Source: a virus
DNA: 39,400 nt
Virus record (IMG/VR): IMGVR_UViG_3300025322_000969
Location: 1 to 39,400 of that record
Strand: one strand, 5' to 3'
Both the position numbers and the translations under genes were made by a program. Below the pieces are notes generated by a model, which saw only the letters and a program-made list of their open reading frames with translations, did no database searches and was not told the origin of the DNA. Shown one piece after another: positions 6,929-26,552 of the stretch; the stretch's first letter is position 1; each line of letters opens with the position of its first letter.

Positions 6929-6965
6929 AGCTACTTGATGGTAGGATCGCAAAGCCTAAAGCTTG

Positions 6966-8826: not shown

Positions 8827-9707
8827 TGATTGACCTATCAGTAGTTATACCTAATTTTAATTCCCCTTTTACAGTACAAACTATAGATGATGTCTTAAAA
8901 AACGCCAGTTGTAGCGTAGAAGTAATTGTAAATGTAGAACAATTATGGCCTGAGCCACTTTCTACAGACGAGAGAGTCCATTATATCCACCCACCTGCCC
9001 CTATTGGTCTTAGAGCTGGTGTAAATGCTTGTGTAGCTATGGCTAAGGGTAAGTACATAATGAAGACTGACGATCATTGTATGTTCGGTGAGAACTTTGG
9101 CAAGATCTTAATAGAATCCCATCAACCTGATTGGGTACAAGTACCTCAACGATATGCCCTAGACGCTGAAAACTGGAAAATTGAGGAGAGAACTGATGAT
9201 AAGTACCCGATTGTCCAGATGTATCAAGATTTTCCCCGTAAAGGTAAAGCTAATGATGATGGAACGCATGGAGTTGAGTGGAGGGAACGAAGAAATCAAA
9301 CCAAAGATCAGGATTTAGTAGAAAGTCCATCAATGCAAGGGAGTTGTTGGTTTATGACTAGAGAATACTTTGATAAGTTAAAACTCATGGATGCTACAGG
9401 ATATGGTCAATTTGCCCAAGAAGCACAGGAAATTGGCTTTAAGACGTGGTTAAGTGGGGGAAAGTTAATGATAAACAAGAAAACCTATTATGCGCATTTG
9501 CATAAAGGAAATCATTATGGAAGATTCTACAAAATGCCCAGTGGTAATGTAGAGGCGGATTCATGGAGTGCGTCTCATTGGTTAAATAATGAAGAACCCG
9601 GAATGATACATGATTTCGCATGGTTCATTAACGAGAAATTCCCTAATATGCCAGGATGGGAATCAAATTGGCAGGAACAAATAAAGGAGATGGGCTGGGT
9701 AAAATGA
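8826..9707 (+). CDS. GT-A glycosyltransferase with DDH motif (1)
   Basis: This 293-residue family 2-type (GT-A fold) glycosyltransferase has the nucleotide-sugar binding N-terminal strand-turn (VVIPNFN, residues 6-12), a metal-binding Asp-Asp-His (82-84) in TDDHC, and an acceptor-side segment with Gln-Gly-Ser-x-Trp and Trp-Leu-Ser-Gly-Gly. The DxH form of the metal motif and the downstream Glu/Trp-Leu-x-Gly-Gly pattern recall polypeptide GalNAc transferases (GT27), but most bacterial relatives are filed under GT2. There is no membrane segment, so it is probably cytosolic. It opens the glycan operon and overlaps the next gene by ATGA. Confidence 0.82.
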   Translation: MIDLSVVIPNFNSPFTVQTIDDVLKNASCSVEVIVNVEQLWPEPLSTDERVHYIHPPAPIGLRAGVNACVAMAKGKYIMKTDDHCMFGENFGKILIESHQPDWVQVPQRYALDAENWKIEERTDDKYPIVQMYQDFPRKGKANDDGTHGVEWRERRNQTKDQDLVESPSMQGSCWFMTREYFDKLKLMDATGYGQFAQEAQEIGFKTWLSGGKLMINKKTYYAHLHKGNHYGRFYKMPSGNVEADSWSASHWLNNEEPGMIHDFAWFINEKFPNMPGWESNWQEQIKEMGWVK

Positions 9708-10450
9708 AAATATCAATTGTAGGTACAGAACATATGGCTCAATCTTTTTCCTATTGTATGGAAAGAATGGGTCATGAAATAGTTTCTTTGGAAGAGTGTG
9801 ACATTTGTTGGATAGCTATTGATACTCCTATTAAAGATGGGCGTGGAGATATTGAAGATGTCTTTATTGCAGCTAAAAGAGTAAGAGATAAACTTAGACA
9901 AGGTGTATTGGTAATCTGCTCAAGCCAAATACCTGTTGGAACTTCAAGAGAACTAATGAATATATTAGGAAACAATTATGCCTATATTCCTGAACATATG
10001 AGGATGGGAAGAGGTATTTTTGATTTTATGAACCTTAAAGAAATCACAATTGGAGTGGATGATGATAAATGTAAACCTATTCTATTAAACTTATTTTACG
10101 ATAAGTCAGTCTTCTTCACCAGCATAGAAACTGCTGAAATGATTAAACATGCCACTAATGCTTACTTAGCCACTACCGTCTCTTTAATCAATGATATTGC
10201 TGATATTTGTGAGCAGGTTGGGGCTGATGTGGCTGATGTCACTAAAGCACTAAGGTCTGATTGGAGAATAGGCAAAGAAGCGTATTTAGACGTATCAGTG
10301 GGCTTTAGAGGCGGTCATTTTGATAGAGATATAAATTACTTACAAGGTGTGGCAAGAGAAAAGAAGATTGAGATTCCAATACTGGATGCTGTTATGGAGA
10401 AAAACCATAAACGCAGGGATAAAATTGTTAGCAAGCTAATTGATATATGA
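9704..10450 (+). CDS. UDP-glucose/GDP-mannose dehydrogenase-like, catalytic Cys missing
   Basis: This 248-residue protein has the NAD-binding and central helical domains of nucleotide-sugar dehydrogenases. The central signature is intact (Ala-Glu-Met-Ile-Lys-His-Ala-Thr-Asn, with Lys148 and Asn152). The usual GG-x-C-x-P-K-D catalytic loop reads GGHFDRD (203-209): both the Cys and the Lys are gone, and the C-terminal UDP-binding domain is absent. Oxidation to a uronic acid is therefore unlikely; a different redox step or a structural role is possible. The start at 9704 (ATGA overlap) is chosen over an upstream in-frame ATG at 9656. Confidence 0.75.
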   Translation: MKISIVGTEHMAQSFSYCMERMGHEIVSLEECDICWIAIDTPIKDGRGDIEDVFIAAKRVRDKLRQGVLVICSSQIPVGTSRELMNILGNNYAYIPEHMRMGRGIFDFMNLKEITIGVDDDKCKPILLNLFYDKSVFFTSIETAEMIKHATNAYLATTVSLINDIADICEQVGADVADVTKALRSDWRIGKEAYLDVSVGFRGGHFDRDINYLQGVAREKKIEIPILDAVMEKNHKRRDKIVSKLIDI

Positions 10451-11379
10451 AAAAATTGCATTTTGCTTTAATTGGTAGAGGTAAGATGGGGAAGAGATGG
10501 GAACAAGTATTATCTAAATATACTTGTTTTCATAGTATTGTTGATACAGATCCACACAAAAGATTTAATGGTGTTTTAGAAAATGAGGATATAAATGCGG
10601 TTTTAATTGTTACTCCCCATAAGTACCATGCTTCTCTTACAGAACAAGCTTTTAAAGCTGGTAAGCACGTTCTTTGCGAGAAACCGGGGGCAATTAGTTC
10701 AAGTCAGATTAAAAAGAATATTGAGTTAGCAAATAAGATGGGTTTAATTTATAAGATTGGTTATAACTACCGCTTCCATGATGGTTTTATTAAAGCAAAG
10801 AAGCTTTTTGATAAGGGAGAGATCGGTAAACTTGTATTTATTAGGGCAACACACGGTTTTGGAGGTAGACCAGGATATGAAAAAGAGTGGCGGCTTAACA
10901 AGGAAATGAGCGGAGGAGGACACTTACACGATCAAGGAGTACACACGATAGATATGGCTAAGTATTTTATGGGAAATATAGTCAAAGTAGAAGGAATGAG
11001 GTCTGATATGTTTTGGGGTGCCGGTACTGAAGATAATGGTTTTGTACTGCTTAAAAACAAAGATGGAGTAATTGCTTCAATTCATAGCAGTTTAACTCAA
11101 TGGAAGCGTAAACATACTTTTGAAATATATGGGGATAAAGGATATTTGATTATAGAAGGATTAGGAATGAGATATGGAGAGCCTGAAAAGCTGATACTTG
11201 GCAAACGCACTAAAGATCCGGATAAAGTAAAAGAGAGAATAATTAAATGTGATCCGATAGCCGATCACTCATTAGAGCTTGAATTAAAAGATTTTATGTC
11301 GGGATCAGTTTCAAATGCTCAAGATGCTTATGAAACTTTAAGGATTGTGGAGGAAGTATATCGAAGGGATCGGATCTAG
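10447..11379 (+). CDS. Gfo/Idh/MocA-family oxidoreductase
   Basis: This 310-residue NAD(P)-dependent sugar oxidoreductase has a Rossmann motif IGRGKMG (residues 9-15), the family hallmark EKP (78-80) and the C-terminal active-site segment GGGHLHDQGVH (157-167) supplying the catalytic His/Asp. Members act on cyclic sugars, often nucleotide sugars such as the 3-position oxidation of UDP-GlcNAcA (WlbA/WbpB). The substrate is not readable from the sequence. It overlaps the preceding gene by ATGA and ends 3 bases before the next glycosyltransferase, so it is clearly part of the same operon. Confidence 0.87.
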   Translation: MKKLHFALIGRGKMGKRWEQVLSKYTCFHSIVDTDPHKRFNGVLENEDINAVLIVTPHKYHASLTEQAFKAGKHVLCEKPGAISSSQIKKNIELANKMGLIYKIGYNYRFHDGFIKAKKLFDKGEIGKLVFIRATHGFGGRPGYEKEWRLNKEMSGGGHLHDQGVHTIDMAKYFMGNIVKVEGMRSDMFWGAGTEDNGFVLLKNKDGVIASIHSSLTQWKRKHTFEIYGDKGYLIIEGLGMRYGEPEKLILGKRTKDPDKVKERIIKCDPIADHSLELELKDFMSGSVSNAQDAYETLRIVEEVYRRDRI

Positions 11380-11382
11380 AGT

Positions 11383-12288
11383 ATGATTACAAGTATACTA
11401 ATTCCAAGCAGAGCTGAAAAGTCTGAAAACCTAGGTAAAACACTTAATAGTATCTATGATAACGCTACCGGTGAATTTGAAGTAATAGTTGGCTTAAATG
11501 GTCAACCCTGGACAGAGATTGAAGCATATCCAAATTTAAGAGTGATTAAGCTTGATGAGAATATCGGTATTAAGGGAATGATTAACCTGCTTGCAGCTTT
11601 AGCAAGAGGTAAATATATCTATAAATCAGATGCACATTGTTCCTTCGGTAAAGGCTTTGATGAGATACTTCACGCTAATATAGAGGACGATTGGATAGTA
11701 ATGCCCCGCTTCAAAATAATCAAAGACGACTGGAGTATTCAGATGAGAGACGGACAGGAGGAGTATTACGATTATTTTTACCTCTCATGCCCCTTCACAG
11801 ACCCTAGAGGCTTTAGATTTAAGGCAGGTGGTCATTGGAAAGAAAGAACACAAGAACGCCTAGAATCGTATCCTGGCGTGGATGAGACCCCACAAATACA
11901 TGGCAGTGGTTGGATGATGACAAAGGATAGGTTCTTTGAGTTAGGTGGATTCCCAAATATTGATCCTAATGGACACGGACAAGAGCCTATTTGGCTAGCA
12001 TTAAAGAATTGGCTAATGGGTGGTAAGGTAATGGTAAATAAAAAAACCTGGTATGCTCACCTACATCAAGACAATAGTGTCAAAGGTTATCATTATACAA
12101 GGGAAGAAGAAGAATATACTTATAACACGACAGCTTCTCATTGGATGGCAGATAAAGAACCTAATTTAATCTATGATATGGCATGGTTTGTAGAAAAGTT
12201 TTATCCAATGCCATCATGGCCCGAAGATTGGTATCAGCAACTAAGAAATTATAAAGCAAACTTAATTTATCCTGCATCGGAGAGATAA
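11383..12288 (+). CDS. GT-A glycosyltransferase with DAH motif (2)
   Basis: This 301-residue paralogue of the 8826 and 18211 enzymes has an N-terminal nucleotide-binding strand (SILIPSR, 4-10), a metal motif DAHC (83-86), an acceptor segment with His-Gly-Ser-Gly-Trp, and Gly-Gln-Glu-Pro with Trp-Leu-Met-Gly-Gly further on. The order of DAHC followed by a Gly-x-Glu/Gly-Gly segment and a C-terminal His-containing strand is shared with GT27-type GalNAc transferases. It has no membrane helix. The product and acceptor are unknown; serine-rich virion proteins are the suspected acceptors. Confidence 0.83.
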   Translation: MITSILIPSRAEKSENLGKTLNSIYDNATGEFEVIVGLNGQPWTEIEAYPNLRVIKLDENIGIKGMINLLAALARGKYIYKSDAHCSFGKGFDEILHANIEDDWIVMPRFKIIKDDWSIQMRDGQEEYYDYFYLSCPFTDPRGFRFKAGGHWKERTQERLESYPGVDETPQIHGSGWMMTKDRFFELGGFPNIDPNGHGQEPIWLALKNWLMGGKVMVNKKTWYAHLHQDNSVKGYHYTREEEEYTYNTTASHWMADKEPNLIYDMAWFVEKFYPMPSWPEDWYQQLRNYKANLIYPASER

Positions 12289-12289
12289 T

Positions 12290-12793
12290 ATGGCATACAA
12301 AATGCGCGTTAGTTTGAAATATGGCACACACTTACCAGCTCTTATAAAAGCTGTTGAAAAAACATTGGAAGATGTGTTGGAGCTTGGGACAGGAGTATTT
12401 AGCACACCTTACCTACATTACGCTTGTACCCTCTCTAAACGTAAACTAGTAAGTTATGAGAACTTTCAGGAATGGTTTGATTTCATAAAAACTTATGAAA
12501 ATGAGTATCATAAAGTAAACTTTGTCGAGAAGTATGCAGATGCTCCAATAGATAAAGAATGGGATGTTGTTTTAATAGATCAAACCCCGGATACCAGCAG
12601 GTCAGAGGAAATTAGACGACTTGCTAATCTGGCTAAATATATTATTATCCATGACTCTAATCCAAGCAATGACAAAGTGACTCATTATTCTGCTATCTAT
12701 CCTTTATTCAAATATAAGACAGACTGGCATGGAGATAAAAATAGAGCGACTGTACTTTCTAACTTAGTGGATTTAACCGATTTTTGGAAATGA
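12290..12793 (+). CDS. SAM-dependent methyltransferase-like protein
   Basis: This 167-residue protein has a class I methyltransferase motif I, Val-Leu-Glu-Leu-Gly-Thr-Gly (residues about 29-35), a following acidic strand and a Asp-Val-Val-Leu-Ile-Asp motif (about 91-96). It is shorter than typical members, and the C-terminal sheet is abbreviated. It may methylate a sugar in the glycan pathway or be a degenerate relative. It starts 1 base after the previous stop. A 63-base gap without a recognised element follows, where no promoter of the shared type was found. Confidence 0.65.
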   Translation: MAYKMRVSLKYGTHLPALIKAVEKTLEDVLELGTGVFSTPYLHYACTLSKRKLVSYENFQEWFDFIKTYENEYHKVNFVEKYADAPIDKEWDVVLIDQTPDTSRSEEIRRLANLAKYIIIHDSNPSNDKVTHYSAIYPLFKYKTDWHGDKNRATVLSNLVDLTDFWK

Positions 12794-12856
12794 AATTTTT
12801 ATCTAACACATATTTAACACTACATACAGAGATATTAAGGATAAGGTAACTTTGAT

Positions 12857-13513
12857 ATGAGCAATTCAACATACGACTACATTATAAAAAAATACAATAT
12901 CATTGTTGGCAATCAATACCTAATTGATGTTGAAGGAATGGTTGGAAGTGTCGCTTTATCTAAGTTATTTGCCGAGTTAAAGTTTAACAAGGGGGTAGAA
13001 GTAGGAGTAGACAGGGGATTGTTTTCTGAAGTTCTATTGAAAGATAATCCTAATCTACACTTATATGGAGTTGATTGTTGGATATCCAGTGCTTTTCCTG
13101 AAGGTAATCCTTATAGATTACAACAGGAATACTTTGATACTTGTTATCAGGAAGCTAAGACACGATTAGAATCATATAACTGCACAATTATTAAAAAGAC
13201 TTCGATGGAAGCCTTAGCGGATTTTGAGGATAACTCTCTTGATTTTGTTTATATTGATGCCAACCATGACTTCGTGAACTTTATTCAGGATATACACTAC
13301 TGGTACAAGAAAGTTAAAGTAGGAGGGATTATTTCAGGACATGACTATACCTATTTCTCTTATAAGAAATTCAATCATGTAAAAAGGGCAATAATTGCTT
13401 ATGCTAGATGTTATAGAATGATACCTCTTTTTGCGGTTATGTATACAAAGACAGGATTAAAACGGGATAAATATAGAAGTTGGTTTTACGTCAAAGATAA
13501 AGATAATCCTTAA
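12857..13513 (+). CDS. class I SAM methyltransferase (Methyltransf_24-like)
   Basis: This 218-residue protein has motif I Gly-Val-Glu-Val-Gly-Val-Asp (residues about 47-53), an acidic residue after strand 2 (Gly-Val-Asp, about 75-77), Phe-Val-Tyr-Ile-Asp-Ala-Asn-His (about 131-138) and Gly-Gly-Ile-Ile-Ser-Gly-His-Asp (about 155-162). The Asp/His metal-like positions resemble TylF-type sugar O-methyltransferases. O-methylation of a glycan residue is plausible. It ends 1 base before the reductase gene start. Only a weak AAGG-type Shine-Dalgarno site is seen. Confidence 0.75.
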   Translation: MSNSTYDYIIKKYNIIVGNQYLIDVEGMVGSVALSKLFAELKFNKGVEVGVDRGLFSEVLLKDNPNLHLYGVDCWISSAFPEGNPYRLQQEYFDTCYQEAKTRLESYNCTIIKKTSMEALADFEDNSLDFVYIDANHDFVNFIQDIHYWYKKVKVGGIISGHDYTYFSYKKFNHVKRAIIAYARCYRMIPLFAVMYTKTGLKRDKYRSWFYVKDKDNP

Positions 13514-13514
13514 T

Positions 13515-14306
13515 ATGACTAAAGTTTTAATATTAGGTTCTACAGGAATGTTAGGTTCAATGGTTTTAGATTATCTTTCTAAAAAGGAGGATCTAATTAT
13601 TACAGCACCTTTAAGAAAAGAGTTGGATAAACTCTCCTATAAGAATTATGACTATATTATAAACTGCATAGGTATTATTAAACAGAAATTAGATAATCCG
13701 GAAGAAGCAATAAGGATTAATTCACTTTTTCCTTATGAACTTAGTAGGAAAGCGCCTAATGCTAAGATTATTCAAATAGCAACGGATTGTGTTTTTTCAG
13801 GGGAGACGGGAAATTATAAAGAATTTGATGAACATAACGCTTTAGATATATATGGCAAAACCAAAAGTTTAGGAGAAGTAAAAGATAAGAACTTTTATAA
13901 TATCCGTTGTTCAATAATAGGTTTTGATAAGAAGAAAGTTTCACTTCTAAGTTGGTTTTTATCCCAAAAGAAAGTAAATGGTTATCTTAATCACTACTGG
14001 AATGGCATTACAACATTACATTTTGCCAATATTTGTTATTCAATTATAGAAAATAAATTAGAACTTCCTAATGTAATTCATTTTATTCCAAAAGATAAAG
14101 TGAGTAAATATCAATTACTTGAAATTATTGCAAAGAAATTTAACAAAAAGATTGAAATTAATGCTAAAACTACCACAGAAGGGATTGATAGAACTTTATC
14201 TACTTCTTTAATGCTTAATAGATTGTTATGGCATGATATGGGTTACGAACACACCCTAACAATAGAACAAATGGTTGAGGAGTTAGCGGAATATGTTAAA
14301 AAATAA
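13515..14306 (+). CDS. extended SDR sugar reductase (RmlD/WbvR/FnlB-like)
   Basis: This 263-residue extended short-chain reductase has an NAD(P) motif Gly-x2-Gly-x2-Gly (residues 8-14), Ala-Thr-Asp-Cys-Val-Phe-Ser-Gly (89-96) and the catalytic Tyr113-x3-Lys117. It is related to dTDP-4-dehydrorhamnose reductase. Next to a UDP-GlcNAc dehydratase-like gene it more likely reduces a UDP-4-keto-6-deoxy-HexNAc, as WbvR/FnlB do in L-RhaNAc, L-QuiNAc or L-FucNAc pathways (inference). It overlaps the dehydratase gene by 14 bases. The C2-epimerase that completes those pathways is not seen in the window. Confidence 0.8.
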   Translation: MTKVLILGSTGMLGSMVLDYLSKKEDLIITAPLRKELDKLSYKNYDYIINCIGIIKQKLDNPEEAIRINSLFPYELSRKAPNAKIIQIATDCVFSGETGNYKEFDEHNALDIYGKTKSLGEVKDKNFYNIRCSIIGFDKKKVSLLSWFLSQKKVNGYLNHYWNGITTLHFANICYSIIENKLELPNVIHFIPKDKVSKYQLLEIIAKKFNKKIEINAKTTTEGIDRTLSTSLMLNRLLWHDMGYEHTLTIEQMVEELAEYVKK

Positions 14307-15168
14307 AGTAGTAATGATTACAGGTGGTACAGGGAGCTTTGGCAATGCTTTAGTAGATAGAGTACTGCCTATGAAGCCTAAGAGAATAGTAATTTTTAGT
14401 CGTGATGAGAAGAAACAAAGCGATATGCGTAATAAATACAAGAACAAGCTCTTATACTTTATTATTGGAGATATCAGAGATAGAGAAAGTGTGGATAACT
14501 CTATGGTAGAAGTTGATTATGTATTTCATGCAGCAGCCTTAAAACAAGTACCAGCTTGTGAGTTTTGGCCTATGGAAGCTGTTAAGACTAATATTTTGGG
14601 AGGAAATAATGTAATTCAATCCGCGATAGAGCATAAAGTCAAAAAAGTAATTATTTTAAGTACTGATAAAGCAGTCTATCCCATAAATGCTTATGGAATG
14701 AGTAAGGCTATATTGGAAAAGATAGTGCAGATATCATCAACTAAAGATACTATTGTTTGCGGAGTGAGATATGGGAATGTTATGTATTCAAGAGGTTCAG
14801 TCATTCCTTATTTTATAGATTCAATTAAAAAAGGTGAACCATTAAAGATAACTAATTTGGATATGACACGATTTCTTCTTAAATTAGATGATGCAGTTGA
14901 TTTAGTTTTAGAAATATTAGCTAAAGGTAAACGTGGGCAAATGTATGTTCGTAAGTCTCCTGCTTGTACGATAGGAACATTAGCAAAAGCAGTCTGTGAA
15001 ATCTTTAACTATAAAAATGGTTATAAAGTAGTAGGAGTAAGGATAGGCGAGAAAATGCACGAAACTCTTATTGCTTCTGAAGATGAACCTTTTACTTCTA
15101 AAAATGCTAAAAGATTAAATGTTGAAGAAGTTAAAAAATTACTTTTAACTTTACCGGAAATAAAATGA
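14293..15168 (+). CDS. UDP-GlcNAc 4,6-dehydratase-like SDR
   Basis: This 291-residue protein has GGTGSFG (11-17), the family-typical His-Ala-Ala-Ala-Leu-Lys-Gln-Val-Pro segment (79-87), Ser-Thr-Asp-Lys-Ala (123-127) and Tyr134-x3-Lys138. This is the PseB/CapE/FnlA group, which converts UDP-GlcNAc to a 4-keto-6-deoxy sugar, with or without C5 epimerisation. The Tyr in the Y-x3-K motif is PseB-like, while the flanking VYPINA is FnlA-like, so stereochemistry is uncertain. It is the committed entry step for a deoxy-amino sugar in this operon. Confidence 0.87.
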   Translation: MLKNKVVMITGGTGSFGNALVDRVLPMKPKRIVIFSRDEKKQSDMRNKYKNKLLYFIIGDIRDRESVDNSMVEVDYVFHAAALKQVPACEFWPMEAVKTNILGGNNVIQSAIEHKVKKVIILSTDKAVYPINAYGMSKAILEKIVQISSTKDTIVCGVRYGNVMYSRGSVIPYFIDSIKKGEPLKITNLDMTRFLLKLDDAVDLVLEILAKGKRGQMYVRKSPACTIGTLAKAVCEIFNYKNGYKVVGVRIGEKMHETLIASEDEPFTSKNAKRLNVEEVKKLLLTLPEIK

Positions 15169-15989
15169 GTAATATAAGTATTTTTGCTAAACCGCCATTT
15201 GAAATGAAACATTTACAAAGAGTATCGTCTATAATTCGTGGCGAGCAAATTGCAGCCTATATGTTAAATTGTCGTCTTAATCCTACAAGTGGTTACGAAG
15301 ATGATACCTGTATCTATGTTAAGCCCCATATCAGGCCAGGTACAGATTATAAGTTTGAAAAACATTCCTATGTAGATGTGCATGATGGGTTTGAGTTAAG
15401 ACATACACTTAGAAAGTATCCTGAAGTAGGAGCTATTGCTATATCAGATCATAGTGCTTACGTTTTGGGGCAGTATGTAAAGAATAAAATTGTTATAATC
15501 CCCCATCATCATTGTAATTTTGAGAGAACTACAAGAGTGAGAGATAAGATAAGAAAGGTAGGAATTACAGGATCTGCTCAAGCTTTTCCATTTGTTCCTG
15601 ATGTAATAAAAGAAGGATTGAAAAAAAGAGACATTTTATACGAGGAATATTCTAATTTCTATCCTAGATTATCGGTTGCCAGATTTCACTATAGTTTAGA
15701 TATTCATTTAGTATGGCGACCTTGGAAGAAAGGACTATCCTCTCCTTTGAAAGTTACTAACGCTATGGCGTTTGGTGTCCCTACGATTGCTTTAGATTTA
15801 GATGAGCCTTCATATAAAGAAGTTGAGGGTTGTTATATTGGAGTTAAGACACCGGAAGAATGGTTAGAAAAATTGGATGAATTAATTGCAAATTCAAAAA
15901 TGTATCAAGATATGTCTAAGTTTTGTCTTGAAAAAGTAGAGCGTTATCATATAAGCGAGATAGCAAAGTTATATAAGGAGTTACTATGA
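15165..15989 (+). CDS. GT-B-like glycosyltransferase
   Basis: This 274-residue protein has a C-terminal half that carries the donor-binding pattern of GT4/GT1 enzymes: Pro-Leu-Lys-Val-x-Asn-Ala-Met-Ala-Phe-Gly-Val-Pro-Thr-Ile-Ala (residues about 195-211) followed by the acidic Asp-Glu-Pro. The N-terminal half is short, so it is below the usual length of about 350. Its fold differs from the three GT-A enzymes, so it probably adds a different sugar or linkage. It overlaps both neighbours by 4 bases. Confidence 0.7.
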   Translation: MSNISIFAKPPFEMKHLQRVSSIIRGEQIAAYMLNCRLNPTSGYEDDTCIYVKPHIRPGTDYKFEKHSYVDVHDGFELRHTLRKYPEVGAIAISDHSAYVLGQYVKNKIVIIPHHHCNFERTTRVRDKIRKVGITGSAQAFPFVPDVIKEGLKKRDILYEEYSNFYPRLSVARFHYSLDIHLVWRPWKKGLSSPLKVTNAMAFGVPTIALDLDEPSYKEVEGCYIGVKTPEEWLEKLDELIANSKMYQDMSKFCLEKVERYHISEIAKLYKELL

Positions 15990-16384
15990 TTGGAATTGTA
16001 ACTGGAAGTTTTGACCTTCTTCATGCTGGTCACATAAATTTACTTAGAAAAGCTAAGCAGAAATGCGATCACTTAATTGTGGGACTTCATGTAGATCCTA
16101 GTATAGAAAGACCGGATAAAAATAAACCTATTGAAAGCCTTCTAGAGCGTCAAATAAAACTTAAGGCTTGTAACTATGTGGATCAGGTTATTGTTTATGA
16201 AACTGAAGCCGATCTATCAATTATATTTAAGTATCTTAAAATTGATATAAGATTTTTAGGTACAGACGCTAAAGATGGCAGGGTAATTACTGATGAGGGT
16301 GCTATCCCAATCGAATATCTCGAATCTTTGCCTATTCATACTTCAGAACTTAGGGGAAGGATCAAAAATGACAACTCAAAATGA
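15986..16384 (+). CDS. cytidylyltransferase-type nucleotidyltransferase (TagD-like)
   Basis: This 132-residue protein has the nucleotidyltransferase signature His13-x-Gly-His16 in an N-terminal Gly-Ser-Phe-Asp context, and a C-terminal Thr-Ser-Glu-Leu-Arg in the place of the family's Ser-Thr-Thr-x-Ile motif. Length and motif spacing match glycerol-3-phosphate cytidylyltransferase (TagD), which makes CDP-glycerol; other substrates (ribitol, ethanolamine or sugar phosphates) are possible. It supplies an activated alcohol or sugar for the glycan. It overlaps the previous gene by ATGA and the next by 17 bases. Confidence 0.8.
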   Translation: MIGIVTGSFDLLHAGHINLLRKAKQKCDHLIVGLHVDPSIERPDKNKPIESLLERQIKLKACNYVDQVIVYETEADLSIIFKYLKIDIRFLGTDAKDGRVITDEGAIPIEYLESLPIHTSELRGRIKNDNSK

Positions 16385-16604
16385 TCCTGCAACAGCAATT
16401 AAAGTTAGAAGATCTAAACAGTTTAAGTTAAAAGCTAGAACAAATAAAAACTTGCAGGTTATTCATATAAAAGACTTTGGTTTTATTCCTGAAACTCTTA
16501 TCTTTGAAAGAATAAATCAAAATTGGTTTGCTATAAGCGCTATTTTAACTCCTGAAGAGATTAAGAAAGAAGAGGAATTAGTTAAGGAGGAGAAAAAGAA
16601 ATAA
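16368..16604 (+). CDS. small basic hypothetical protein in glycan operon
   Basis: This 78-residue protein is rich in Lys, with a possible small beta region (residues about 15-60) and a charged helical tail. It starts at ATG 16368 behind an AGGGGAAGG purine tract; an in-frame earlier start at 16293 would lie inside the cytidylyltransferase gene and is less likely. Its last codons contain the AGGAGG that serves the next gene, and its TAA overlaps that gene's apparent AUA start. No family is recognised. Confidence 0.55.
   Translation: MTTQNDPATAIKVRRSKQFKLKARTNKNLQVIHIKDFGFIPETLIFERINQNWFAISAILTPEEIKKEEELVKEEKKK
16585..16603 (+). promoter_or_regulatory. strong SD placed on an AUA codon (site 1)
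   Basis: AGGAGGAG (16585-16592) lies 8 bases before ATA at 16601-16603, which overlaps the previous TAA stop as ATAA. The frame from this ATA encodes the missing Rossmann glycine motif of the epimerase-like protein, so it is the apparent start. ATT at 16604 is a less likely alternative. Confidence 0.6.
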
Positions 16605-17098
16605 TTATCGGAAACGGAGACATCGGCACTATATTAAAAGAAGCTATGCGTCCGGCAGACGAGGGCTATATTTTCTTTGCCTCAGGAGTTTCAAATAGCC
16701 AGGAAACAAGGGAAGATGAATATAATAGGGAGTATTTACTGCTTATGGAGCAGGATAGGTCAAAGCATCTAGTTTATTTTAGCTCTTTGGCGGTTTTCTA
16801 TTCGGATACACGCTATACTAAGCATAAAAGACTAATGGAGGCTTGGATTAAAAAAGAGTTTCCCAAATATACTATAGTCAGGTTGGGGAATATTACATGG
16901 GGAACTAACCCTCATACACTTATCAATTACTTAAAAGCCCATCCAGAAGCGGAAATACAAGACGTTTACCGCTATATTATTGATAAAGATGATTTTTTGC
17001 ATGTTATCGAGCTTATTCCTGACTGGTCATGTGAACTATCTATCTTTGGTCGTAGAATGAAAGTTAAAGAAGTGGTAAAGGAGTATTGTAATGGATAA
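16601..17098 (+). CDS. NAD-dependent epimerase-like protein with apparent AUA start
   Basis: This is a 165-residue short extended-SDR relative. From the ATA at 16601 the N-terminus reads Ile-Ile-Gly-Asn-Gly-Asp-Ile-Gly, the expected NAD-binding glycine motif, which is lost if the first ATG (16646) is used. Ser-Ser (residues about 63-64) and Tyr-x3-Lys (about 74-78) form the catalytic core. It is half the usual length, so substrate-binding parts are reduced. It could be a sugar-nucleotide reductase or epimerase. It overlaps the phosphatase-like gene by 8 bases. Confidence 0.68.
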   Translation: MIIGNGDIGTILKEAMRPADEGYIFFASGVSNSQETREDEYNREYLLLMEQDRSKHLVYFSSLAVFYSDTRYTKHKRLMEAWIKKEFPKYTIVRLGNITWGTNPHTLINYLKAHPEAEIQDVYRYIIDKDDFLHVIELIPDWSCELSIFGRRMKVKEVVKEYCNG

Positions 17099-17411
17099 AT
17101 CAATAAAAATACTTTGTGTCTGCCAGCATGGTTACTGTAGGAGTGTAGGGACAAGATATTGCCTTAATAAACGTGGCTATAATAATGTGATTGCTATTGG
17201 ATGGCGCAATACTTCTCTTGAAACTTTAAAGATGCTTTCCGATTGGGCAGATATAATCTTAGTAGCTAAACCCTATCATGCTGATTATCTTCCAAGTGGA
17301 AAAGAGAAAGTAAATAACAAATTTACCATAGGAGAAGATAATTGGCTTAATCCTATGAATAAAGAGTTACACGAAATCGTAGATAAACAATTGGAGTTAA
17401 TAAAATTATGA
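17091..17411 (+). CDS. low-molecular-weight protein tyrosine phosphatase-like protein
   Basis: This 106-residue protein has an N-terminal P-loop Cys11-x5-Arg17-Ser18 (CQHGYCRS), the LMW-PTP/arsenate reductase signature, directly after a beta strand. The usual Asp-Pro general-acid loop near the C-terminus is not obvious (an Asn-Pro occurs instead), and the protein is shorter than the usual 140-150 residues. In capsule operons such enzymes dephosphorylate tyrosine kinases that control chain synthesis; here it may have a different phosphate substrate. It overlaps the next gene by ATGA. Confidence 0.65.
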   Translation: MDKSIKILCVCQHGYCRSVGTRYCLNKRGYNNVIAIGWRNTSLETLKMLSDWADIILVAKPYHADYLPSGKEKVNNKFTIGEDNWLNPMNKELHEIVDKQLELIKL

Positions 17412-18166
17412 AAACTGGCTGCGTGGGTTTTGGCTGGGTTGGTAAAAGTATGAAACAACTATTTCCAGAAGCTGTAGTATACGACCCTGCTTTAAATATG
17501 GGAACTAAAGAAGAAATTAATAAAGTAGATATTTGTTTTATTGCAGTGCCAACTCCTAATATTGGTGAGAGTAAACTTGATACTTCAATAGTCGAAGAAG
17601 TGATTAAATGGTGTGAATGTCCACTTCTTGTTATTAGGTCAACAGTAAATCCTGGGGATTGTGATAGATGGATAAAAGAAACAAAAAAAAACATTTTAAT
17701 GCAACCGGAATATTTGGGCGAGTCTCCTGCTCATCCAATGCTTGACCCTAAAATTAGACCCTTTTTGATAATTGGCGGATTACCTTTTGCAAGGTACAAA
17801 CTTATTCAACTTTATCAAACAGTTTATAACGCCAATATTACAATTCGGGAAGTGACTAATTTAGAGGCAGAAGTTATTAAACTTTCGGAAAATAGGGCAA
17901 TTGCTTTTAAAGTAGCCCAATGTCAGGAACTTTATGATATATGTGAAAAAGCAGGAGTTAATTACAATACTATTCGAGAAGCGGTTTATGGTGATGATCC
18001 TCGATTTAATCTTTGGTGGACTTTTGTCTATCCAGATAAAAGAGGATTTAATTCAAAGTGTATTCCCAAAGATGTGTATGCTTGGTGTGCTTGGGCTGAA
18101 AGTCTAGGTTATGAACCGAAAATTACCAGAGCCATACTTGAGAAGAATAAGGATTGGATAAAGTAA
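17408..18166 (+). CDS. UDP-glucose/GDP-mannose dehydrogenase family, catalytic residues intact
   Basis: This 252-residue protein has an NAD motif Gly-Phe-Gly-Trp-Val-Gly (7-12), a central helix with Glu-Ala-Glu-Val-Ile-Lys158-Leu-Ser-Glu-Asn162, and a catalytic loop Ser-Lys-Cys218-Ile-Pro-Lys221-Asp222. These residues are those used to oxidise a nucleotide sugar C6 to a uronic acid. The C-terminal nucleotide-binding domain is missing, so it is shorter than the usual 390-450. It contrasts with the paralogue at 9704, which has lost the Cys. Its TAA abuts the structured element at 18167. Confidence 0.82.
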   Translation: MKTGCVGFGWVGKSMKQLFPEAVVYDPALNMGTKEEINKVDICFIAVPTPNIGESKLDTSIVEEVIKWCECPLLVIRSTVNPGDCDRWIKETKKNILMQPEYLGESPAHPMLDPKIRPFLIIGGLPFARYKLIQLYQTVYNANITIREVTNLEAEVIKLSENRAIAFKVAQCQELYDICEKAGVNYNTIREAVYGDDPRFNLWWTFVYPDKRGFNSKCIPKDVYAWCAWAESLGYEPKITRAILEKNKDWIK

Positions 18167-18213
18167 GCTAGCGCATAATTCGCAGGGCCGTCGCTAGCGC
18201 CCTGCGAATTATG
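18167..18213 (+). promoter_or_regulatory. interleaved stem element, copy 2, covering a start codon
   Basis: GCTAGCG (18167-18173), a 14-base arm (18174-18187), a 4-base gap, CGCTAGC (18192-18198), one G, then the complementary arm (18200-18213). The 14-bp stem is perfect, and the ATG of the next gene (18211-18213) is the last three bases of the 3' arm. Against copy 1, six pairs differ by compensating changes on both strands while the GCTAGCG boxes and the GGG/CCC loop-end pairs are fixed. There is no Shine-Dalgarno site. The upstream stop codon (18164-18166) touches the first box. Confidence 0.8.
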
Positions 18214-19842
18214 ACAGATTTAAGTATTTGCATACCTAGTCGCAACGAGGAATTTCTAGGTAGGACAATACAAGATTTACTTGAGCATACAAGTGATAAG
18301 ACAGAAATTATAGCCATTTTAGATGGTTGGCTACCCAACCCCCCCTTGCCAACAAGCCCTAGAGTAACAGTAATTTATAATCCTGTTTCTGTTGGACAAC
18401 GTGCAGGAGTAAACCAAGCTGCAAAAATAGCCAAAGGTAAATATATCCTTAAACTGGATGCTCATTGTGCAGTAGATCAGGACTTTGATTTAAAGATGAT
18501 TAAAGCAATGGAAGAATTGGGTGAAAATACAACACTTATTCCCTTAATGAAGAATATGCACATTTTTGATTGGGTGTGTGAGGAGGGTCACAGACGTTAC
18601 CAAAGCCCTTCAGGGGTATGTGAAACGTGTGGTAAGCCTACTACCAAAGATATTGTATGGATTGCTAAGAAAAGCCCTAACACTTTTACTTTTAGAATTG
18701 ATAAAACAATGCACTTTCAGTATTTCTCGGAGCTTGCTAAACGTCCAGAGAATATTGCAGGTGCTTTGAAGTTAGATGGTACTAGAGATACTAACTATCG
18801 TGAGACTATGAGTATCCAGGGTTCGTGCTTCATGATTACTAGAGAAAAGTACTTTGAATTGGATATTTGCAGCGAGGATTTTAACTCATGGGGGCAACAA
18901 GGCTGTGAAGTTGCGATGAAAACCTGGCTCTCAGGAGGACAAGTAATTGCTAATTTATATACCTGGCACGCGCATACCTTCAGAACAAGAGGGGGTGATT
19001 TTGGCTTCCCTTACTCCAACCCACAAGATAAAGTTAATGAGAACAGAGAACTATCAAGAGAGTTATTCCAAAGAGATAAATGGCCTAAAGCTACCCGTAA
19101 ATTCCAGTGGATACTGGATAAATTTAATCCGCCAGACTGGGGAGTAAGCAAGGGTATGATTTATTATACCCATAATCAGTTGACTGAAGCGATTGCTAAA
19201 CCAGTTAGAGATAACCTTTTAAAAATAAGCCAGGACAAGAAAATAAACATAACTTCAGCCTCACTTAAAAAGATGGATTTTGGGGTTAAAAATGTACGAT
19301 TCCCTTCACTTAAAAAAAGTTACTATGCCATGCACAAACAAATCTTAGGGGCATTGGAGAATAGTAGGGATGATTGGATATTCTTTACCGAGCATGACGT
19401 GTTGTATCATCTCTCACACTTTGATTTTGAGCCTAAGGATAAAGAAACTTTCTACTATAATCAAAATATTTGGTACTTACGGGAAGATGGACACGCTCTG
19501 CATTATGACGTTAATCAATTATCAGGACTTTGTGTTTGGAGGGAAACTGCAATTACTCACTTTAGAGAAAAGTTAGCAAGAATAGAAAAAGAGGGATTTT
19601 CACGGAATATGGGTTTTGAACCTTTCACTCATAATAGAGTCCAATGGGATAAGACATTTAAGATGGAAACTTGGAAATCAGAAGCACCAAATGTAGATAT
19701 ACGTTTCAAACAAAATAGTACTGGTATGAGGTGGAAAAAAGAAGAATATAGAAATCAACAGTTACTTATAAATTGGCAAGAAACAGACGACTCAATAGAT
19801 GGTTGGGGTAAGACTCAAGACCTCGTAAAAACACTTCAATAA
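18211..19842 (+). CDS. large bidomain GT-A glycosyltransferase with DAH motif (3)
   Basis: This 543-residue protein has an N-terminal GT-A domain (1-about 300) with IPSRNE (8-13), DAHC (83-86), a Cys123/His127/Cys137/Cys140 zinc-ribbon-like insertion, a Gln-Gly-Ser-Cys acceptor motif and Trp-Gly-Gln-Gln-Gly-Cys-Glu. This last pattern is close to the Trp-Gly-x-Glu-Asn-x-Glu of GT27 polypeptide GalNAc transferases. The C-terminal domain (about 315-543) has Phe-Thr-Glu-His-Asp, which could be a second metal-binding GT-A site. The start codon is within the structured element. It is the last gene of the glycan operon and the best candidate for a protein-glycosylating enzyme here. Confidence 0.82.
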   Translation: MTDLSICIPSRNEEFLGRTIQDLLEHTSDKTEIIAILDGWLPNPPLPTSPRVTVIYNPVSVGQRAGVNQAAKIAKGKYILKLDAHCAVDQDFDLKMIKAMEELGENTTLIPLMKNMHIFDWVCEEGHRRYQSPSGVCETCGKPTTKDIVWIAKKSPNTFTFRIDKTMHFQYFSELAKRPENIAGALKLDGTRDTNYRETMSIQGSCFMITREKYFELDICSEDFNSWGQQGCEVAMKTWLSGGQVIANLYTWHAHTFRTRGGDFGFPYSNPQDKVNENRELSRELFQRDKWPKATRKFQWILDKFNPPDWGVSKGMIYYTHNQLTEAIAKPVRDNLLKISQDKKINITSASLKKMDFGVKNVRFPSLKKSYYAMHKQILGALENSRDDWIFFTEHDVLYHLSHFDFEPKDKETFYYNQNIWYLREDGHALHYDVNQLSGLCVWRETAITHFREKLARIEKEGFSRNMGFEPFTHNRVQWDKTFKMETWKSEAPNVDIRFKQNSTGMRWKKEEYRNQQLLINWQETDDSIDGWGKTQDLVKTLQ

Positions 19843-21114: not shown

Positions 21115-21450
21115 ATGGCAACAATTAAACTAACCAAAGTAGACATTGGGCCGACTAGATATATTGTTTATCAAGACGGTATACCCTCAGAAGTTACATC
21201 AGAGGTTTTTATGGTTGTTGATATAGACGGAAAAGTAATCTACAACTATGATACTTGGAGTAAACAAATAGGTTTCGCTACACCCTCAAAAGCACTGTCA
21301 GACAAACAGTACGCTACTCAAGCTAACGGCTATCATTGGGTAAAAATTCCAGGCTATGCCGTAATCAAAATCCCACCTGAACATATCACTAACAATACCC
21401 TTAACCAAGCAGGGATAGACTATATAAAGATTTGGGCGGGGGAGGGATAA
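21115..21450 (+). CDS. small hypothetical protein between fibre genes
   Basis: This 111-residue mixed alpha/beta protein of unknown function has no signal peptide or known motif. It starts 3 bases after the LamG fibre stop, and its TAA overlaps the next gene's ATG (TAATG), so it is in the same operon. Its Gly-rich end encodes a G-run that acts as the Shine-Dalgarno site for the next gene. A fibre-chaperone or connector role is possible, without evidence beyond position. Confidence 0.6.
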
Positions 21451-24400
21451 TGGCAATTACAATTGGCACACCAACATCATCTGGCAATCAAGCAAATACA
21501 TCTGGATTTAGTTTTAACAACACCCCTAACGCTAACACTAAAGCATTAGTAGTTGTAGTTATGGGAGTGGATTCAAGTGCTACCGATTCAGTTGTTAGCG
21601 GTGTTACTTTTGGCGGAGTTGCCCTTGAACCAGCCAGAGCCAGATATAAGCCCAATGGAGAATTTTTCCATATCTGGTATCTTAAAAACCCCACAATAGC
21701 TTTAGGTTCTGTTGCTGTTAGCTTAGGTGGTACCTGTACTGACTGTCAGGCTACCGCCATTCCCTTAATAGACGCAAGTGCGACAAGTATTTTTTACGAT
21801 ACGGGTCTTGAAAACACCGATGCCGATACAACTCACGGATTTACAATAACTTCTGTAAAAACAGGTGCGATGGGTATAGCGGCTATTTGGAATGGTGATG
21901 CTCTCACAACTGATGTCGCCCCTACTTCTACTCCTACTTCAGGAACACTTGTTACAGGTAGTGAAGCTGATAATGGTGCTTCTTGTAATGAAGTTGCTTG
22001 GCTTGGAGAATCAGGGGGTTCGGTGGCTTTCTCTTGGACAAAAGTTGCCACAAATGCCTCTGGTGCTCAAGGTGCGACTTTTTATTCTCAATTTGCTCCT
22101 ACCGTAGTCTTAACCACTCCCACAGACACCGCCACAGGACAAAGCGTTACTCCTACTTTAATCTTTACAGGAACAGATCTTAATGCAGACGAGGTGGAAT
22201 ATGAGGTACAGGTAGATACGAATAGTAATTTTGGAATGATTGCTGGACAAAGTACATATGATACTGACACTGTCCTATATTCGGGATTTATTATTGCTGC
22301 TGGACAATCTTTCACTGGAGATGGAAGTACTCTCGATCATTGTGATATTCTTTTAAGTAAATCTGGTTCGCCAACTGGTACAGCTCAAGTCAAAATCTAC
22401 AATCATAGTGGTATATATGGAACATCTAGTGTACCAACAGGAGCTGCTTTAGCGACATCTGGTACACTGGATGTATCGACGTTGACAACAACTCCCACCT
22501 TGACTACATTTAGTTTTACAGGTGGAGACAGAATACCGTTAGAGAATGGGACTTACTATGTAGTTACAATTGAATATTCTGGAGGAAATAGTACCAATAG
22601 TGTGCGAGCTTATCGTAGCACTTCAAATGTCTATTCTGGGAATTATTGTTACTATTCTTCTTCGTGGTCAGCATATAGTACCAATGATTTAGTTTTTGGT
22701 GTATATCGTGAAATTACTCTTGACACCCTCTCCTCCACCGATGATGACGCTAACTGGACAGGTACAGGAGCTCCCAATCCTTTTCCTAGTGGAAATGCGA
22801 TAAGTTATACGATACCAGTAGCAAGTACATTAGATGCCTCTACTACCTATTACTGGAGAGTAAGAGCTATTGACCCCCTAGGAAGTAATACCTGGGGAGC
22901 ATATCCGACAGCGTTTAGTTTTACGACGGCGGCGGGGGGTACTGTTTCATCTTCTGCTTCTGGATCGGCTTCAGCCAGTGCCAGCGGTTCTGCTTCTGAG
23001 TCTAAAAGCGCTTCCGCTTCTGAAAGCGCATCGGAATCTGCCAGTGAAAGTAAGTCATTAAGCCCTAGTGCTTCAGAGTCAAAAAGTGCTTCTGTTAGTG
23101 AATCAGCCTCAGCTTCACCATCAGAAAGTGCGTCAGAAAGCAAGTCATTATCTCCATCTGCAAGTGAGAGCAAATCTGAATCAAAATCCGCCTCTGCCAG
23201 CGAATCTGCTTCTGAATCCAAATCTCTATCTCCATCAGCATCAGAAAGTAAAAGTGCTTCAGCTAGCGAAAGCGCCTCAGCTTCCGCTTCCGAAAGTAAA
23301 AGTCTTAGTCCTTCCACATCAGAAAGTGCATCGGCATCAGCCAGTGAATCTAAAAGTGCCTCCGCGTCGGAAAGTAAGTCTCTTTCACCCAGTGCATCCG
23401 AAAGCAAAAGCGCTAGTGCTAGTGCTTCGGCTTCTGAGTCAGCGTCAGCTTCAAAATCTGAATCTAAGTCAGCTAGTCCATCCACCTCAGAGTCCAAATC
23501 AGAGTCTGCTTCCGAGTCGAAATCTCAAAGCCCTTCTGCCAGTGAAAGTAAATCTCAGTCTGCTTCAGGAAGTGCTAGTGAGTCAAAATCGGAAAGCAAA
23601 TCCCAGTCTCCTTCGGCTAGTGAATCAAAGAGCGAATCTAAATCCGAAAGTAAGTCTGAGAGTAAAAGTGAGTCTAAAAGTTTAAGCCCATCATCAAGTG
23701 AAAGCAAATCGGAATCGAAAAGCGAATCAGCTTCTGAGTCAAAGTCCGAATCCAAGTCATTGAGCCCTAGCGCATCGGAATCGAAATCTGAATCAAAATC
23801 AGAATCTGCTTCAGAAAGTAAATCTGCCTCTGCTTCCTTAAGTCCCAGTGCTTCATTATCTCCTTCAGCTTCTGAGTCTCCATCAGCTAGTTTATCTCCT
23901 TCAGCTTCCCAAAGTCCTAGTGCATCAGAGTCTAAATCCCTTTCACCATCAGCATCAGAATCCAAAAGTCAAAGTCCCAGCGCTAGCCTTTCGCCTAGCG
24001 CTTCTCTCAGCCCTTCCGCCAGCGAATCTAAGAGTCTTAGTCCTTCGGCGAGTGAGTCAAAAAGTTTGTCACCTAGCGCCTCACTTTCTCCTAGTGCTAG
24101 CCTTAGTCCATCGGCTAGCTTAAGTCCATCGGCTTCGGAGAGTAAATCTCAATCACCATCTGCATCGGAATCAAAATCTCAATCACCCTCGGCTAGTTTG
24201 TCTCCATCTGCAAGTCTCTCTCCTTCAGCTAGTTTAAGCCCTTCAGGATCACTTAGTCCTTCAGCTAGTTTAAGCCCTTCAGGTTCTCAAAGTCCAAGCG
24301 CATCTGAGTCTAAAAGTTTGTCACCATCTGCGTCAGAGTCCAAGTCACAAAGCCCATCCGCCAGCCTTTCTCCATCAGCATCCCAAAGTCCATCTGGATC

Positions 24401-26552
24401 TTTAAGCCCTAGTGCATCGGGATCTAAAAGCTTAAGCCCTAGTGCATCGGAATCTAAGTCTTTATCTCCAAGCGCTTCATTATCACCATCCGCCTCATTA
24501 AGTCCAAGTGCCAGCTTGTCTCCTTCAGCCAGTGAATCTAAATCTCAAAGCCCTTCTGCATCCGAATCAGCCTCGGCTAGCGCCAGTGAGAGTAAAAGTT
24601 TATCGCCTTCTGCCAGAGAGTCTAAGTCTGAAAGCAAATCAGCTAGCGCTTCTCAATCGGCTAGTGAAAGCAAGAGTTTGTCACCATCAGCATCAGAATC
24701 AAAATCAACCAGCGCCTCGGAGTCTAAAAGTGAGAGCAAAAGTGAATCCAAGTCGTTAAGTCCTAGTGTCTCCGAATCAAAATCAGAAAGCAAATCTGCC
24801 TCAGCCTCAATGTCTGCTTCCGAAAGTAAATCTCTTTCTCCATCTGCTTCCGAATCAAAATCAGAAAGCAAATCTGCCTCAGCCTCTGAATCTGCATCGG
24901 AGTCTAAAAGTTTATCCCCTTCAGTATCCGAATCTAAGTCTGCTAGTAAGAGTGAATCTAAATCTCAATCGCCATCGGCAAGCGAGAGTGCTAGCGAATC
25001 TAAGAGCCAATCCCCAAGTGCCAGTGAATCCAAAAGCGAAAGTAAATCTTTAAGTCCATCAGCGTCAGAATCCAAATCTCTTAGTCCTTCTGCTTCTCAA
25101 AGTCCAAGTGCCTCTGAATCAGCTAGTGCGAGTGCAAGTGCTTCTCCTTCAGGCGGAAGCGCTTCTGGTTCAGCCTCTGAATCTAAGTCGCTTTCTCCCT
25201 CTACCTCAGAGTCAAAATCTGAGTCCAAATCTGAGTCCAAATCTCAGAGTCCTTCTGCCAGTGAAAGTAAATCTCAGTCTGCTTCAGGAAGTGCTAGTGA
25301 GTCAAAATCAGAAAGCAAATCATTATCACCATCAGCGTCAGAATCGAAAAGTGAGAGCAAGTCAGAAAGTGTTTCGGAGTCAGCTAGTGAGAGTAAAAGT
25401 CTTTCACCAAGCGCTAGTCTTTCATTTTCTGCTTCTGAATCAGCAAGTGCTTCAAAGAGTGCTTCAGCTTCTATATCGGCTTCGGAAAGCAAAAGTCAAT
25501 CACCATCCGCTAGTGAGAGTAAGTCTGCTAGCGCTTCGGAGAGTAAATCAGAATCCAAATCTGAATCTAAATCCCAAAGTCCTTCTACTAGTGAATCAAA
25601 AAGTGCTAGCGCCAGTGCCTCGGCAAGCGAAAGTAAATCGGAAAGTAAAAGTCAGTCTCCATCGGCATCTTTAAGCCCAAGTGCAAGTGAAAGTGCTAGT
25701 GGTTCTGCCTCTGTATCTAAAAGTCAGTCTCCATCTGCAAGTGAGAGCAAATCTGAATCAAAATCCGCCTCTGCCAGCGTCTCTGCTTCTGAATCAAAGT
25801 CAGCATCAGCATCAGAATCAAAGTCCCTAAGTCCATCGGCAAGCGAATCGGCATCAGAAAGCGCCTCTGAATCCAAATCCTTAAGTCCTTCCGCTTCAGA
25901 ATCAAAATCTGCTTCAGCTTCCGAATCTAAATCTCTTAGTCCGTCTGTCAGTGAGAGTAAAAGTGCCTCTGCTTCAGAAAGTAAATCTCAATCCCCCTCG
26001 GCTTCTCTCAGTCCTAGTGCAAGTTTATCTCCTTCGGCTTCGTTATCACCATCAGCTTCACAATCCCCTAGTGCAAGTGAGTCAAAGTCGCTATCCCCTA
26101 GTGCGTCAGAATCTAAAAGTCTTAGTCCTAGTGCCTCTCCCAGTTTGGGATATACAGGCTATACAAGAGGAGATGAGGCAACGCTTCCAACAAATGATAC
26201 CGATTTGGAAACTGCTTACACTGCTCAAAATGTAACTGATGTCGCAACAGATGACGGAGTGAGAGTAGGCCAAACTGGAACGCTACAATACATGATACAT
26301 CAATTCAAAAACTTTGTGCCGGTAAGCAGTACTCTTTTAAACTGGAATGGACAATCAAGCCTAGCACCTTCTGCCTCAATAGTCCGTTTACAGATTTATA
26401 ACAGAAATACTCCAGCTTGGGAAACTGTGGATAGTGATAACACAACAGGAGCAAATACTGATTTTGACTTAAGTGGGAATATAGCGGATTTGACTAATTA
26501 TAAGGATGCAGGAAACGTAATAAGCTGTAGGGTTTATCAGGAGGCGACATAA
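21450..26552 (+). CDS. giant serine-rich repeat fibre protein 3
   Basis: This 1700-residue protein begins with residues 1-about 205, a Thr/Val-rich beta domain. Then comes a fibronectin III-like domain split by an inserted beta-sandwich (about 205-500; the last strand motif is Tyr-Tyr-Trp-Arg-Val-Arg-Ala). A (Ser-X)n tract follows from about 500 to 1564, and a C-terminal beta domain of about 135 residues closes the protein. The serine tract contains no Tyr or Trp and few bulky residues, so it should be an extended stalk. ATG 21450 is preferred over the ATG at 21432 because it overlaps the upstream stop as TAATG behind GGGGGAGGG. It is likely a long virion fibre and the main suspected glycosylation target. 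Confidence 0.82.
23151..23219 (+). repeat. duplicated 69-base segment, copy A
   Basis: It is almost identical at DNA level to 25728-25796 (about 66 of 69 bases), although serine codons elsewhere are scrambled. Confidence 0.8.
23532..23602 (+). repeat. duplicated 71-base segment, copy A
   Basis: It matches 25251-25321 with a single G/A difference, indicating a recent duplication or gene conversion. Confidence 0.85.
24771..24886 (+). repeat. tandem 38-base repeat pair
   Basis: 24771-24808 and 24849-24886 are identical and offset by 78 bases (26 codons), a recent tandem duplication that keeps the reading frame. Confidence 0.8.
25251..25321 (+). repeat. duplicated 71-base segment, copy B
   Basis: Partner of 23532-23602, 1719 bases apart. 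Confidence 0.85.
25728..25796 (+). repeat. duplicated 69-base segment, copy B
   Basis: Partner of 23151-23219, 2577 bases apart; the difference is concentrated in one codon that changes Glu to Val. Confidence 0.8.

Follow-up and report, generated by a model that had tools for sequence, protein, structure and literature searches.

A compact element of two interleaved helices with covarying arms at start codons of an uncultivated phage, and its possible role in intercistronic translation control

We describe a compact element in which two helices interleave around a start codon and which is present twice in the genome of an uncultivated phage and once in each of two related phage loci. The window analyzed here is an entire IMG/VR virus record of 39,400 bases. 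An RNA-level structure of the element is well supported, and in the reading we prefer, to which we assign a probability of about 0.5, it is a cis element of the sense mRNA that controls intercistronic translation via two mutually exclusive, interleaved hairpins.

The first-pass annotation had described two copies, located at positions 196-243 and 18167-18213, and direct reading of the sequence confirmed all parts, their order and their positions (Table 1). Helix A (7 bp) is formed by box1 and box2, helix B (14 bp) by arm1 and arm2, with the AUG of the next gene lying in the 3' strand of helix B. The element is 47-49 nt long, and copy 2 with its 47 nt fills the gap from the stop codon to the next start codon. 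As had been proposed, both bases differ between copies 1 and 2 in six of the 14 arm pairs, and the arms of copy 1 contain two G-U pairs. The statement that each copy ends on a start codon holds for copy 2, but in copy 1 arm2 extends two bases beyond the ATG. Likewise, the claim that each copy begins on a stop codon has to be made more precise: in copy 1 the TAG of a 15-codon ORF overlaps box1 by one base, and in copy 2 the TAA (18164-18166) of a gene for a 252-aa protein directly precedes box1. The lack of a Shine-Dalgarno sequence, also pointed out before, is not distinctive, many genes of the same phage being likewise without one.

Table 1. Coordinates of the element copies, of adjoining genes, and of elements with the same layout in other phages
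Feature	Locus	Position	Strand	Basis or remark
TAG stop of 15-codon ORF (149-196)	window	194-196	+	sequence; its G is base 1 of box1
Copy 1 box1 GCTAGCG, helix A 5' strand	window	196-202	+	sequence and pair table
Copy 1 arm1 GTTATTAAGCTGGG, helix B 5' strand	window	203-216	+	sequence and pair table
Copy 1 linker AAGTT	window	217-221	+	sequence
Copy 1 box2 CGCTAGC, helix A 3' strand	window	222-228	+	sequence and pair table
Copy 1 single G between box2 and arm2	window	229	+	sequence
Copy 1 arm2 CCCGGCTTAATGAC, helix B 3' strand, with ATG 239-241	window	230-243	+	pair table
Downstream gene of copy 1, 85-aa conserved protein	window	239-496	+	homologs in 43 viral loci
Gene upstream of copy 2, UDP-glucose/GDP-mannose dehydrogenase family, 252 aa	window	17408-18166	+	TAA abuts box1
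Copy 2 box1 GCTAGCG, helix A 5' strand	window	18167-18173	+	sequence and pair table
Copy 2 arm1 CATAATTCGCAGGG, helix B 5' strand	window	18174-18187	+	sequence and pair table
Copy 2 linker CCGT	window	18188-18191	+	sequence
Copy 2 box2 CGCTAGC, helix A 3' strand	window	18192-18198	+	sequence and pair table
Copy 2 single G between box2 and arm2	window	18199	+	sequence
Copy 2 arm2 CCCTGCGAATTATG, helix B 3' strand, with terminal ATG 18211-18213	window	18200-18213	+	pair table
Downstream gene of copy 2, glycosyltransferase family 2	window	18211-19842	+	homology
Form (a) element	L174	3050-3109		
Form (a) element	L174	2538-2578		
Form (a) element	L183	7621-7662		
Form (a) element	L190	7248-7290		
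Form (a) element	L197	1948-1988		
Form (a) element	L207	8323-8375		
Form (b) element	L277	2187-2226		after major capsid or adjoining structural genes (all form (b) rows)
Form (b) element	L278	2187-2225		
Form (b) element	L279	2191-2227		
Form (b) element	L280	2199-2236		
Form (b) element	L281	2212-2248		
Form (b) element	L282	2165-2208		
Form (b) element	L299	2129-2170		
Form (b) element	L136	6243-6281		
Form (b) element	L201	7029-7066		
Form (b) element	L223	13108-13149		
Form (b) element	L207	14852-14893		
Form (b) element	L225	16774-16813		
Form (b) element	L215	near 6307		

The box sequence GCTAGCG occurs 21 times in the window versus 1.8 expected occurrences, a 12-fold enrichment. As most of these copies (14 of 21) sit in low-complexity Ser/Ala-rich reading frames, the enrichment alone is no evidence for the element, and GCTAGCG was rejected as a genome-wide motif, being mostly a product of Ser/Ala-rich coding repeats. 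Long low-complexity stretches of this kind, the source of most GCTAGCG copies, extend over positions 21432-29347, 7400-7760 and 29500-29750 and involve several large genes. Of the 21 occurrences, none outside the two elements shows the paired layout, and among the strong hairpins of the window just these two carry a common repeated box in both loop and 5' flank. Chance origin was rejected since dinucleotide shuffles of 0.97 Mb gave no interleaved case scoring like either copy. When the window was searched against Rfam release 15, nothing reached the gathering score; around copy 1 there was no match at E ≤ 10, and around copy 2 there were only sub-threshold chance matches.

The product of the gene downstream of copy 1 has no Pfam or PHROG match. 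Downstream of copy 2, the start assigned to the glycosyltransferase gene matches that of homologs lacking the element. Genes for sugars and surface glycans (glycosyltransferases, UDP-glucose dehydrogenases, epimerases, a methyltransferase) make up about 11 kb of the phage genome at positions 8826-19842, and positions 36102-36560 encode an HNH endonuclease with a NUMOD3 motif. The phage's own capsid-like gene (5822-6928) is followed by a terminator-like inverted repeat, AAAGCCTAAAG...TTTAGGCTTTTTT, at 6951-7015, and similar inverted repeats occur in L129, L134 and L158.

With the box sequence and, in the narrower scans, also the ATG spacing fixed, scanning 2.9 million viral contigs and 84,980 genomes left two related phage loci apart from the window itself and L122, a 5-kb piece with 100% identity to the left end of the window. 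L126 (also L047; IMGVR 3300009285_006018) is the one true relative from the exact-pattern scan of viral contigs; its element precedes a 91%-identical glycosyltransferase, and the upstream gene is unrelated and epimerase-like. L134 (IMGVR 3300009285_000986; terminase 62% identical) was found by reading terminase relatives and provides a fourth copy, which precedes a homolog of the 85-aa protein gene and has quite different arms, the sequence at the homologous start being GTTAGCG-GGCAACTAGAGGTG-GAATAT-TGCTAGCG-CTCCTCTGAATGCC. Further copies that keep their complementarity had been called for by the first reading, and L126 and L134 supply them. An L134-based pattern scan with the ATG included gave no other true copy in viral contigs or bacterial and archaeal genomes, and besides L047, L122 and L134 no pattern match in the viral and bacterial collections combined the boxes with comparably complementary arms. 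A match in L123 is due to chance, lying within a G+C-rich gene. Bacterial repeats in L145, L152 and L156 (GCTAGCG...CGCTAGCGCTCC..GAATGACA) apparently represent a different, dispersed palindromic repeat that fits the pattern by chance.

At sites homologous to that of copy 1 the element was found only in L122 and L134 among the 43 loci, and the corresponding starts in L128, L132 and L133 are without it, as are the glycosyltransferase starts homologous to copy 2 in L124, L125 and L127. Close relatives lack the element at both sites. L124 has homologs of both genes flanking copy 2, yet its stop-to-start gap is six bases. Many dispersed copies in either orientation, as in a mobile palindromic element, were not found; there are two copies in 39.4 kb.

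We aligned the four copies (copy 1, copy 2, L126, L134; two of the four near-identical) with the linker excised, which makes the alignment gap-free. Across 21 pairs in four copies 95.2% of the cells form standard pairs versus 80.7% in shuffles, none of 500 shuffles reaching the observed value, and in slid-register controls 27-40% of the cells are paired. In eight of the 14 arm pairs both partners are changed (12 cells), so that the proposal of a covarying interleaved element at start codons is upheld by four copies. Box1 and box2 are paired in all 28 cells, two of them being G-U in L134. Helix A shows no double-sided change, with five of its seven pairs invariant and two varying by wobble, and the conservation of the boxes can therefore be explained equally well by sequence recognition. 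The arm stem of L134 is weak (10 Watson-Crick pairs and one G-U of 14; z -0.15), and one mismatch in L126 is uncompensated. Comparing the window with L126, the element is identical at 45 of 47 positions, whereas the third codon positions of the gene agree at 199 of 309 (64%) and the upstream flanks are unrelated. This indicates that all 47 bases, beyond the start codon, are under selection and that the unit travels with the downstream gene.

The evidence favours RNA of the sense strand, on small numbers. The orientation is the same and the AUG lies within arm2 in all four copies, and the few non-Watson-Crick cells of the sense strand are five G-U and one A-C. Copy 1 folds with -20.1 kcal/mol as sense RNA (z -2.4) versus -11.1 kcal/mol as antisense RNA (z -0.3), and box1 of L134, GTTAGCG, has lost the DNA palindrome while retaining its RNA pairing with box2. 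The helices follow the A-B-A'-B' order of an H-type pseudoknot, and both are kept in the four sequences. Judged by the sequence of copies 1 and 2, there are no loops long enough to span the two helices: the linkers provide 0 nt across the 14-bp helix and 0-1 nt across the 7-bp helix, so that all pairs cannot coexist in one molecule. We thus share the earlier steric objection to one pseudoknot containing all pairs, the geometry being taken from general knowledge. In minimum-energy folds of the growing transcript, where equilibrium folding of truncated RNAs is a mere proxy for kinetics, helix A is present in all four copies when the RNA ends at box2. The changeover to helix B needs about 8 more nucleotides in copy 2 and L126 and 15 more in copy 1; in L134 it is seen only after downstream sequence has been added. 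The first reading had left a pairing switch, loop-loop dimers and a DNA-level site side by side; the G-U bias, the sense folding of copy 1 and the recurrence of the layout between stop and start codons favour a pairing switch in the sense RNA.

From these features we infer a switch that would decide whether the second gene is translated. Helix A would form first as the RNA exits the polymerase, with arm1 looped out and the AUG open. Once arm2 emerges, the RNA would refold to helix B and bury the AUG at the base of the stem. A ribosome terminating on the upstream gene would cover box1 and the base of helix B, including the bases that pair with the AUG, and might so reopen the start codon, which would tie translation of the second gene to fresh transcripts, to translation of the first gene, or to both. 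In all four copies the downstream start lies within the structure, its AUG being part of arm2, and the AUG-pairing bases of arm1 lie 0-5 nt past box1 and would therefore be covered by a ribosome that has its stop codon there. The upstream stop is 0 nt from box1 in copy 2 and 19 nt before it in L126, and the adjoining upstream ORFs that end in or at box1 have 15 codons in copy 1 and 33 codons in L134; given the distance in L126 and the two short ORFs, coupling to upstream translation would not be universal. Short stop-to-start spacing is common in compact phage genomes anyway.

Boxes that stay nearly constant while the arms vary are what a protein-bound operator would look like, and autogenous translational operators are known from several phages. 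The element might accordingly be a plain start-codon hairpin with a protein landing site, where the 14-bp arm stem regulates and the constant box, present as GCTAGCG outside the stem and as CGCTAGCG in its loop, is an autogenous operator. The box is indeed exposed in the hairpin loop, and the copies precede unrelated genes, so one regulator could serve both. We nevertheless consider an operator unlikely, since it leaves unexplained why the L134 boxes stay complementary through two separate wobble changes and why elements with wholly different boxes keep the interleaved layout. The constancy of the boxes could also stem from recognition of DNA, with the arms as an inverted repeat, for instance by protein binding to palindromes, in a cruciform or in a small mobile or recombination element. 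The box core is palindromic as DNA, some homologous sites carry the element and others do not (L124, L125 and L127 for copy 2; L128, L132, L133 and other loci for copy 1), and the homology between the window and L126 starts at the 5' edge of the element. The uniform orientation with the AUG inside arm2, the tolerance of sense-strand G-U, an antisense strand of copy 1 that folds no better than shuffles, and the non-palindromic box1 of L134 that still pairs in RNA render such a site quite improbable.

A strong hairpin immediately after a stop codon would also suit an element for mRNA stability or processing, that is, protection of the upstream 3' end or a nuclease site, or a factor-dependent terminator; stable structures, annotated as terminators in Bacillus and Paenibacillus phages, often follow the capsid genes of other phages. 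An intrinsic terminator or a promoter was rejected because no T run follows the stem and neither site has a terminator- or promoter-like match. A pure stabilizer, moreover, needs neither the next start codon nor a second interleaved helix, and we regard this explanation as decidedly improbable. Conservation of both helices would be expected of a true single pseudoknot, and the palindrome in the loop is of the same kind as kissing-loop dimer sites, which brings to mind RNA dimers formed via the self-complementary CGCUAGCG in the hairpin loop. A pseudoknot would have to cross the 7-bp helix with 0-1 nt and the 14-bp helix with 0 nt, whereas dimers do not explain box1, and L134 (UGCUAGCG) retains the inner palindrome only, making either structure very improbable.

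The layout underlying the proposed pairing switch is not confined to this box sequence. When 0.97 Mb around terminase relatives were searched, regardless of sequence, for the A-B-A'-B' order with short linkers, 13 interleaved cases scored at least 42 versus one in shuffles, the 13 corresponding to 11 distinct ones as L174 and L176 share two. Tandem hairpins of equal strength, which control for hairpin richness, numbered 55 versus 14 in shuffles. Of 44 listed cases scoring at least 38, in which many loci are counted twice because both strands were read, 41 are intergenic. Reversed sequence proved useless as a control because reversal preserves the interleaved layout. Lambda, T7, Page, HTVC026P, API480 and one environmental phage (249 kb in all) had no strong interleaved element, a weak control as about three would be expected.

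Two forms could be distinguished. In form (a) the short helix comes first, as in the window, and this form recurs with unrelated sequences in distant relatives. Relative to the stop codon of the upstream ORF (at least 50 codons) the elements in L174 (twice), L183, L190, L197 and L207 start at -1, +1, 0, -1, +1 and -1 nt, a pattern matched by copy 2 with 0 nt; exceptions to this placement are L126 (+19 nt) and L204 (+45 nt). Form (b) follows capsid genes at a minimum of nine distinct loci and has an outer stem P1 (ATTGTT...AACAAT) that encloses two helices, one long (about 9-12 pairs) and then one short (about 7). These inner helices are interleaved with linkers of 0-5 nt, the start codon of the next gene often follows directly, and the last strand often has Shine-Dalgarno-like bases. 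When 13 sequences were cut to the helix cores, all 22 pairs changed on both sides and 99% of the cells were paired, figures somewhat flattered by hand-picked registers and, for the inner helices, partly built in because the search selected them. P1 lies outside the search score; there, 78 of 78 cells pair and six of six pairs covary. An excess of sense G-U in the capsid-linked group (13:0) was discounted as the score used in the search was biased towards G-U; when scoring was made symmetric, the total over all hits, background included, is 45:36. The six form (b) loci searched had no Rfam match. Judged by eye, the next gene is GroES-like after the capsid gene of L209 and GroEL-like in L223, where a group I intron (Rfam RF00028; 11947-12170) lies just upstream of a capsid gene fragment. 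Form (a) resembles form (b) read on the opposite strand, and the two may have a common function. The three-helix structure of form (b) is possibly more interesting than the element of the window. That all these elements belong to one sequence-diverse class of linker-less interleaved helices, placed stop-to-start and acting as a two-state device on the second gene in a large group of uncultivated phages, appears to us possible at slightly less than even odds.

Among known systems, the SAM-II and SAM/SAH riboswitches are H-type pseudoknots that control ribosome access. The window's element shares with them the A-B-A'-B' helix order near a start codon, but their loops are long enough to cross, whereas here linkers of 0-1 nt face helices of 7 and 14 bp. 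Translational coupling by unfolding of a start structure is established for f1 VII/IX, MS2 coat/lysis and rpmI-rplT (review PMC12548453). As in this 'RNA unfolding' model, the downstream start is hidden where a terminating upstream ribosome can open the structure; unlike the single or long-range hairpins of coupling, the element keeps a second interleaved helix and constant boxes. The mRNA of the H. pylori toxin aapA3 forms co-transcriptional metastable hairpins (PMC6733600), and timP mRNA adopts mutually exclusive folds that contain pseudoknots (PMC11228461). In both, exclusive folds of one mRNA gate the start and folding order matters, as proposed here, but they are type I toxin-antitoxin leaders with an antisense RNA, whereas the phage element is intercistronic and has no known antisense partner. 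Cluster K mycobacteriophages carry SAS and extended SAS (ESAS) repeats at the translation starts of a subset of genes (PMC3203893). In SAS the start is preceded by an invariant stretch of 13 bp, GGGATAGGAGCCC, to which ESAS adds an upstream conserved 17-bp imperfect inverted repeat; SAS is present or absent gene by gene, and a role in translation is suspected (PMC3203893). Like SAS, the element is a phage repeat present at the starts of some genes and absent from others. Unlike SAS, its arms vary and covary, include the AUG and interleave with a box, and the sequence preceding both starts is arm2 and not SAS. We did not find the layout described in the open-access literature, and we file the element as a cis-acting start-codon structure in kind that belongs to no named family.

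Structured control of translation in phages is known from a handful of model phages. Standard RNA searches that rely on nested structure are largely blind to this layout, as interleaved helices are not modelled and the sequence hardly repeats. Here, uncultivated phages repeatedly show a compact conserved layout where two genes adjoin. If the switch is true, co-transcriptional folding order and coupling to the terminating ribosome could be tested directly on pieces of 50 nt, and an A-B-A'-B' order anchored to a stop codon would serve as the search rule for more.
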